Source: Solobacterium sp. (lineage in GTDB: Bacteria; Bacillota_I; Bacilli_A; Erysipelotrichales; Erysipelotrichaceae). Taken from it: a stretch of DNA of 42,881 nucleotides. The stretch spans positions 1 to 42,881 of the forward strand of contig JAILQT010000090.1 in the NCBI GenBank assembly GCA_024698805.1, in the 5' to 3' direction. Under the pieces are notes generated by a model that was given only the letters and a program-made list of their open reading frames with translations, was not told the DNA's origin and made no database searches. The translations under genes and the position numbers were made by a program. This document shows, piece after piece, positions 24,017 through 25,406 of the stretch; the stretch's first letter is position 1; each line of letters begins with the position of its first letter.

Positions 24017-24133
24017 ATGATAAAAATATAACCATATGAAGTGCTGGCTTTTGCGGACGGCTTCATGTTCATGAAAGCCATGTCCGATGCACAGAAAAAG
24101 GAATATGCTTTATGCATATCCCCTTCCCTGTGA
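24017..24133 (+). pseudogene. Small ORF interrupted by an early stop
   Basis: AGGAGGATAAGG precedes an ATG at 24017. The fifth codon is TAA (24029-24031), and the same frame is then open for 33 codons to TGA at 24131, encoding a helix-like peptide (PYEVLAFADGFMFM, then KAMSDAQKKEYAL). The strong ribosome binding site and sensible peptide suggest a small gene inactivated by one nonsense codon, or the tail of a lost gene. The sequence matches no family I know. Internal ATG codons at 24065 or 24071 could give a shorter peptide, but lack good sites. Confidence 0.4.
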
Positions 24134-24147
24134 CTGTTTATGGGAAA

Positions 24148-25293
24148 TCATCCGCTGACGACATCCCTAAGACGGACATCCGGTATGACCGCACGTACTG
24201 CTTCCTTCAGCCGGATCATCTCCTGGTCATTGTAGGAAGAGAAGCCGTTCTGGATCAGATTGCCTGTGTTTTTGAAGGGCTGCAGGTAATATCTTCTGCA
24301 TCCCCGGATCCATTCGGCGATCTTCAGCAGATCATCCTCTGTATGCAGTTCCCTGACGACAGTCGTACGGAACTCGTAATCGATATCGCTGTTCATCAGC
24401 AGGCTGACCGACTGCCCGATCGTATCCATGGAGAACCTGTCTTCGCTCATGCCGGCTGTCAGTGCGTATTTCTCCCTGCAGTTCTTGATATCCATGGCGA
24501 TGTAATCGACAAGGCCTTCATCGATCAGTTCCTTCATCCTGTCCGGAAACATGCCGCATGTATCGATCTTGACCTTATAGCCCATTTTCCTGATCTCGCT
24601 CAGGAGTCTTCCCGTATCCTTCTGCATCAGGGGCTCGCCGCCGCTGAGGCATACCGCATCGAGCAGCTTCCTTCTCTTTTCCAGATACCGGAGCACCTCA
24701 TCCGGGGACACAAAACTGGTATCTTCGGGGATGAATACGAGGTCCCTGCTGCTGCAGTACGGGCATTTCATACAGCAGCCCGACATATACACCGTACAGC
24801 TGACCGTCTCCGGATAATCCGTCAGGCTCATCTTGTCAAACCTGCCGATGCGCATGCCGGCATAATCCGCATCGGGATCCAGCTTTTCCCTCGTATTGAC
24901 GCAGACCTGCGCCATCAGTTCTTCCAGCTTCTCAAAGTCCATCCCGTCCCGGATCTTCGCCCGGTATGTGTTCCTCATCTCGTAGATATCGCGCATGACG
25001 TCCGCTGCCCTTTCCGCCGTATACAGTCTCTTGATGCGGCGGTCCTTTTCATCCGGCACGGTCTTCACATAGCCCTGGTCGATGAGCCGCTGTATGCTTT
25101 TGGTCGTCGTTCCCTTATCCACCTCGGAGAGCTTCGTGACTTCCTGCATGGATATGCCTTCGTTCTCGTTGATCAGGATCAGGAAGATCAGCTGGCCGGA
25201 GCCGATGTCATAAGGCGCAAGCGCCCTGTCGAAGTATTTCATCGTGTTCCTGTAGAGCACGGACAGATTCAGAATAAAATTGCTGTCAGGCAT
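24148..25293 (-). CDS. MarR-type HTH fused to radical-SAM NrdG-like protein
   Basis: A 381-residue fusion. Residues 1-140 are a MarR-type winged helix (ISMQEVTKLSEVDKGTTTKSIQRLIDQGYV, with the recognition helix near residues 60-75, and the wing DEKDRRIKRLY). Residues 150-381 are a radical-SAM domain like the NrdG2 activase of anaerobic ribonucleotide reductase (TIGR02495): RFDKMSLTDYP, the cluster motif C173-x3-C177-x2-C180, SGGEP at about 217-221, KIDTCG and AMDIKN. The start at 25293 follows AGGAGGGAAAG. No nrdD is in the window. Its promoter contains a 24-bp dyad, suggesting autoregulation. Radical generation on a glycyl radical partner is inferred from the family. Confidence 0.85.
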   Translation of the reverse strand: MPDSNFILNLSVLYRNTMKYFDRALAPYDIGSGQLIFLILINENEGISMQEVTKLSEVDKGTTTKSIQRLIDQGYVKTVPDEKDRRIKRLYTAERAADVMRDIYEMRNTYRAKIRDGMDFEKLEELMAQVCVNTREKLDPDADYAGMRIGRFDKMSLTDYPETVSCTVYMSGCCMKCPYCSSRDLVFIPEDTSFVSPDEVLRYLEKRRKLLDAVCLSGGEPLMQKDTGRLLSEIRKMGYKVKIDTCGMFPDRMKELIDEGLVDYIAMDIKNCREKYALTAGMSEDRFSMDTIGQSVSLLMNSDIDYEFRTTVVRELHTEDDLLKIAEWIRGCRRYYLQPFKNTGNLIQNGFSSYNDQEMIRLKEAVRAVIPDVRLRDVVSG

Positions 25294-25340
25294 CTTTCCC
25301 TCCTGCATCGGTTGGATTTCCTACCAATTTCATCGGAGTT

Positions 25341-25346
25341 ATTATA
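25341..25346 (-). promoter_or_regulatory. -10 of the MarR/radical-SAM gene
   Basis: A perfect TATAAT on the minus strand lies 47 bp upstream of the start codon. It partly overlaps the dyad that begins at 25345. Confidence 0.55.
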
Positions 25347-25368
25347 CAACGGTTTGCGCAGCGTTGTA
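25345..25368. promoter_or_regulatory. 24-bp dyad, probable MarR operator
   Basis: TACAACG (25345-25351) and CGTTGTA (25362-25368) form a perfect 7-bp inverted repeat with a 10-bp spacer. It fills the -35/-10 spacer of the fusion gene and lies 38 bp upstream of the divergent SseB-like gene, so one bound dimer could control both. Confidence 0.7.
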
Positions 25369-25406
25369 CTGTAGGAATACCGAAAGAATTGCGTTATGAT
25401 AATTTC

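Follow-up and report, generated by a model that had tools for sequence, protein, structure and literature searches.

The 42,881-nucleotide stretch of Solobacterium sp. DNA analyzed here (contig JAILQT010000090.1; hereafter the window) contains a gene in which a MarR-type DNA-binding domain is joined to an NrdG2-type radical-SAM activase. This raises the question of whether the fusion is a genuine protein and, if so, what a DNA-binding domain does on the activase of a reductase.

Architecture and distribution of the MarR-NrdG2 fusion

The coding part for the 381-amino-acid fusion protein covers window positions 25293 to 24151 on the minus strand, with the stop ending at 24148, and its frame runs uninterrupted for 381 codons from the ATG at 25293. 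Another ATG, at 25308, lies upstream of this start and has no ribosome-binding site. On the plus strand, a 420-amino-acid open frame (24112-25374) is antisense to the entire gene and shows no sign of being a gene itself. The features of the fusion gene are as follows.

24148..25293, minus strand: MarR-NrdG2 fusion gene, 381 amino acids, stop codon included (open reading frame, profile matches, orthologues)
25298..25304, minus strand: ribosome-binding site AGGAGGG of the fusion gene (sequence)
24901..25284, minus strand: MarR winged-helix domain plus dimerisation helices, residues 4-131 (Pfam MarR_2, AlphaFold2)
25078..25116, minus strand: recognition helix, residues 60-72, within DKGTTTKSIQRL, kept in all fusions (conservation, AlphaFold2)
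24160..24855, minus strand: NrdG2-type radical-SAM domain, residues 147-378 (TIGR02495, 196 bits; Foldseek to PFL activase)
24754..24777, minus strand: [4Fe-4S] motif C173-x3-C177-x2-C180, intact (sequence, conservation)
24631..24645, minus strand: SAM-binding motif SGGEP, residues 217-221, intact (sequence, conservation)

By profile the fusion belongs to NrdG2, since residues 150-341 match NCBIfam TIGR02495 with 196 bits against a curated cut-off of 131, and by fold it belongs to MarR. The latter assignment comes from a Pfam MarR_2 match over residues 32-87 (E 2.7e-11) and from an AlphaFold2 model (pLDDT 84.6) that joins, through a weakly modeled linker, a radical-SAM barrel to a complete winged helix with MarR dimerisation helices (helices 4-28, 32-43, 49-56 and 60-72, wing strands 76-80 and 88-92, helices 94-115 and 120-131). 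The closest PDB folds retrieved by Foldseek are PFL-activating enzyme and the MarR protein 3s2w; the cut-off of the BilQ profile NF045593 is missed (65.6 versus 125 bits). Among 40 other conserved activase columns, four are altered in the focal fusion (G151R, F169Y, N182S, and N246C), and given that its activase motifs are intact, it may have residual activase activity.

Within the Erysipelotrichaceae, 165 of 272 genomes match the fusion (E below 1e-20), most of them over its full length (approximately residues 4-378), where all such counts are taken over related, non-independent genomes that are in part draft assemblies. The full-length orthologues share 32 to 58% identity and include those of single-contig genomes, and the named records that match are Erysipelotrichaceae MAGs. 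Among 395 genomes sampled from the class and 392 from the phylum, the fusion was also found in one family of the same order (f2) and one of the same class (f21), and the sampled families outside these three either had NrdG2 without MarR or gave no match. Although the focal genome is a draft of 146 contigs, it is virtually inconceivable that an assembly or frameshift artefact united two genes here, because well over 100 independent assemblies show the same architecture, among them the single-contig genomes G007, G014, G023, and G174, with full-length orthologues in most of the 165 matching family genomes and in two more families. The MarR-NrdG2 gene is a real, old fusion. A previous sequence-only reading had described a complete MarR domain on an NrdG2 activase with intact CxxxCxxC and SGGEP motifs, which Pfam, TIGR02495, and AlphaFold2 bear out, and had named a frameshift as a finding that would overturn it; the single open frame and the occurrence of the architecture across public genomes leave the fusion standing. 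In the open literature we found no description of a MarR-NrdG fusion or its operator; subscription papers or automatic annotations could mention them.

A palindrome at fusion and nrdD promoters

With a threshold of 12 bits, we found a conserved 18-bp palindrome, TAGTTGGAwwTCCAACTA, upstream of 60 of 70 fusion genes, at about 27 to 66 bp from the start codon, but in just 2 of 1,352 controls. In the window, the promoter region of the fusion contains the following.

25309..25326, no strand: operator TGGTAGGAAATCCAACCG, a member of the 18-bp palindrome family (matrix scan, conservation)
25341..25346, minus strand: -10-like TATAAT, putative promoter; the operator starts about 15 nt downstream (sequence)
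25346..25367, no strand: dyad ACAACG-N10-CGTTGT of the sequence-only reading; present, not conserved, not above chance

The focal operator is an imperfect match to the consensus (18.9 bits) and the top match in the entire 42.9-kb window, and its distance from the TATAAT gives it a position suited to a repressor. A matrix built from other genera recovered the site in 30 of 35 fusion promoters of the window's own genus (2/651 controls), and the reverse transfer recovered it in 29 of 35 promoters of other genera (3/657 controls). In f2 and f21 the operator precedes 10 of 11 fusion genes. Ten of the 70 fusion promoters lack a recognisable operator, and in several of these genomes the functional nrdD has the site. 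As a predicted site, the palindrome thus provides what is expected of a MarR-family member, namely, a palindromic operator at regulated promoters. The earlier proposal that the gene has an operator-like dyad of its own was right in that the fusion does have its own operator, but the dyad then named is a different element: it occurs in 1 of 70 fusion promoters, only the window's own, and does not exceed chance, since 84 of 300 shuffled upstream regions hold some perfect 6+6 inverted repeat.

In nearly all relatives, nrdD lies directly 3' of the fusion, with a gap of about -23 to +26 bp (overlap being possible). The focal genome does not have this linkage, which is typical but not obligatory for NrdG2: its sole nrdD is located on contig C19, beside another NrdG2, so that "nrdD not adjacent" describes this genome correctly but fails as a general trait. 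Given that the sole nrdD sits behind a canonical NrdG2, the focal fusion is a second, orphan activase. The order on C19 is split nrdG2, operator (C19:462-479), nrdD (from C19:671), and a thioredoxin-reductase-like gene; the nrdG2 is split by a contig break between the end of G000:C21 (L083:1498-1787) and the start of G000:C19 (L001:1-416). Five other genomes (G078, G066, G063, G272, and G262) likewise have a canonical nrdG2-nrdD locus away from the fusion. NrdD is also the glycyl-radical partner that the sequence-only reading had proposed to look for in the same genome, and with this partner and the fusion's own operator at hand, that reading is supported insofar as the MarR/NrdG2 fusion is real and should couple RNR activation to transcription. 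A further glycyl-radical protein match lies on contig C94, and neither class I nor class II RNR was found in the focal genome. The focal NrdD (G000:C19:671-3064, L001) has a glutaredoxin-like domain with the motif CPNC at its C terminus, and the trxB-like gene comes next; this suggests a thiol-reduced rather than a formate-reduced class III RNR.

The operator is not confined to the fusion's own promoter. TTGGANNTCCAA has its single mismatch-free occurrence in the 2.8-Mb focal genome at the nrdD promoter, where the operator scores 16.5 bits. Across the fusion genomes examined, all 22 working nrdD genes that are unlinked to the fusion have the operator at their promoter. These comprise six split genomes (the focal one and the five named above), with the operator before nrdD or before the nrdG2-nrdD operon, and 16 nrdD genes of genomes with a pseudo-NrdD (see below). 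In contrast, none of 21 nrdG2-nrdD loci of fusion-less genomes has it (20 loci, all with nrdG2 and 19 with nrdD in the same stretch, plus the Erysipelotrichaceae locus L027). Fisher's test gives a P of 6e-11 for 17/17 versus 0/20, a value that overstates the strength of the association because the genomes share ancestry. Site and fusion come and go together, a pattern that in comparative genomics classically marks a regulator and its target. Class I RNR, considered as a regulon member, was rejected, with no operator at 12 of 12 class I genes.

The focal genome's regulon was sampled by a pattern search allowing at most one mismatch. A third sequence that resembles the operator, AAGTTGGAAATACAACCG (14.8 bits; G000:C125:9802-9819, L134:1498-1515), is part of the promoter of a gene for a GyrB/ParE-like protein and overlaps a perfect 22-bp palindrome, GAAATACAACCGGTTGTATTTC; it might be either a further target or the site of another regulator.

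Alternatively, a separate regulator might occupy these sites, with the MarR domain of the fusion having only a structural or protein-docking role. We regard this as very improbable, since the site tracks the fusion across three families and is missing where nrdG2-nrdD occurs without it, and since the recognition-helix core DKGT and the wing D-x-R are kept in all fusions, including the enzymatically decayed ones.

Asymmetric decay beside pseudo-NrdDs

In 16 loci, the NrdD beside the fusion has S, N, Q, A, or R in place of the conserved C175 and has lost the C381/C382 pair; in records long enough to show it, the glutaredoxin-like C-terminal part with its CxxC is gone as well. Six of these 16 pseudo-NrdDs also lack a recognisable glycyl-radical/zinc domain. 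Among NrdDs from canonical loci, 49 of 52 retain all of these residues and parts that their records cover, and the three exceptions (L235-L237) represent another, shorter NrdD type. The loss is uneven along the protein: the pseudo-NrdDs keep 24 to 27 of 27 invariant positions of the ATP-cone, and barrel invariants are down to as few as 63/208 and 17/119, with 0-3/38 elsewhere. The adjacent fusions keep 25 to 28 of 28 MarR invariants, with a mean of 14.5 of 40 activase invariants altered, compared with 0.54 in operonic fusions, 3.0 in orphans, and 4 in the focal fusion. Three of them (G217, G218, and G222) have lost the cluster cysteines. According to the tree, these pseudo-NrdD/fusion lineages arose about five times independently.

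Every genome with a pseudo-NrdD also holds a separate full-length NrdD, usually with its own NrdG, and the operator lies upstream of every such nrdD (up to an exact consensus match in G217/G218); these promoters had been left out of matrix building. Among individual records, loci L160, L161, L208, L169, L170, and L171 encode NrdD-derived proteins of about 510 to 650 amino acids beside MarR-NrdG2 genes, with an intact ATP-cone and no recognisable glycyl-radical/Zn domain. The genome of L003 (G634) has three NRDD matches, two full-length and one pseudo-NrdD beside the fusion, with the operator at both full-length genes.

These patterns bear on the signal that the fusion might sense. The sequence-only reading had suggested redox or SAM status, in which case the Fe-S cluster or the bound SAM of the radical-SAM domain would switch the MarR domain. 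CxxxCxxC and GGEP are indeed intact in the focal and operonic fusions, and as the regulated enzyme is oxygen sensitive, loss of the cluster would be a sensible signal. However, the fusions of G217, G218, and G222 keep MarR without the cluster cysteines while the functional nrdD genes keep strong operators, which speaks against a mechanism based on cluster sensing in all lineages, and we consider a redox or SAM sensor unlikely. Alternatively, the fusion might mainly be an activase under plain negative autoregulation, where free activase represses the operon until it is titrated by NrdD and nucleotides are not sensed. The nrdD operon with a self-site in most genera fits this explanation, as do the nearly complete sets of conserved activase residues in operonic fusions; yet it explains neither why pseudo-NrdDs retain their ATP-cone nor why trans sites precede unrelated, functional nrdD genes that have an NrdG of their own, so that as an overall account it seems doubtful, if a little less so than the redox sensor. 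In genomes like the focal one, whose activase motifs are intact, Fe-S/SAM state or plain activase/NrdD stoichiometry is nonetheless a possible signal.

A candidate replacement for NrdR

NrdR has been called the universal repressor of RNR in bacteria (PMC12051234); it senses ATP and dATP through its ATP-cone (PMC12051234; PMC9110341). No NrdR was found in the focal genome, and none of the 272 family genomes has a TIGR00244 match above the cut-off, so that the family offers no internal contrast in this respect. We attribute the weaker matches (E below 1e-3) in 34 genomes to the ATP-cones of RNR proteins, because they are partial, fall below the cut-off, and lie mostly in RNR-sized frames.

The best overall explanation, to which we assign a probability of about 80%, is that the fusion regulates the transcription of class III RNR in the place of NrdR, most likely as a repressor; its control over the reductase genes of this NrdR-less family of gut bacteria is very probably direct. 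The regulator would have been built by giving the activase of the reductase itself a MarR domain. Judging from the co-occurrence of site and regulator, the MarR domain of a fusion dimer would bind the palindrome in its own and the nrdD promoters and, from the position of the site just downstream of the -10 element, would block transcription. The NrdG2 half may dock on NrdD, in some lineages a catalytically dead one, and the docked NrdD may then report the activase/NrdD stoichiometry and, through the ATP-cone, the dATP/ATP status. In the focal genome, the orphan fusion would act in trans on the canonical nrdG2/nrdD locus. The sensor in the split lineages is probably the ATP-cone of the pseudo-NrdD, although the cone could be retained for another use of the dead NrdD, e.g., dimerising with active NrdD. 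In the Erysipelotrichales, the fusion would thus do the job that NrdR does elsewhere; the full version, in which a MarR-NrdG2 repressor with an NrdD or pseudo-NrdD ATP-cone as its sensor replaces NrdR in this order and about five times independently became a non-enzymatic, two-protein dNTP-sensing repressor, is in our view evenly balanced between right and wrong.

The fusion would therefore work like NrdR without being a member of its family. Both systems stand for RNR-specific transcription control through palindromic sites at RNR promoters (predicted ones for the fusion), and in the pseudo-NrdD versions a DNA-binding domain is again paired with an ATP-cone. However, NrdR unites a Zn-ribbon and an ATP-cone in one protein, whereas the fusion has neither and bears a MarR domain, so that an ATP-cone serving as its sensor would reside on a separate NrdD-derived protein. 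The sites differ as well: a single 18-bp palindrome at class III genes only replaces the pair of NrdR boxes. Compared with canonical NrdG2 (TIGR02495), of about 230 amino acids and without MarR, the fusion has a radical-SAM half that scores above the cut-off with all catalytic motifs, plus the N-terminal MarR domain. With MarR regulators (3s2w, BilQ NF045593, SlyA) it shares the complete fold, recognition helix, wing, and 18-bp palindromic promoter operator, but its partner in the polypeptide is a catalytic domain from the pathway that it would regulate. BirA-type trigger enzymes combine a winged helix with a biotin ligase and likewise place enzyme and repressor in one autoregulated polypeptide (autoregulation of the fusion being putative); fold, pathway, and ligand are different, and some fusion lineages lose catalysis and keep regulation.

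An entire family without detectable NrdR thus presents a strong candidate replacement, a DNA-binding domain on the reductase's own activase, and the repeated decay of the enzyme with the DNA-binding domain and ATP-cone kept amounts to a natural dissection of an enzyme becoming a regulator. This reading yields direct predictions for the operator and the sensor domain. A natural test strain is G262, in whose genome a canonical nrdG2-nrdD operon coexists with a fusion/pseudo-nrdD operon (L172, G262:C106, and L201, G262:C65), with the operator upstream of each.
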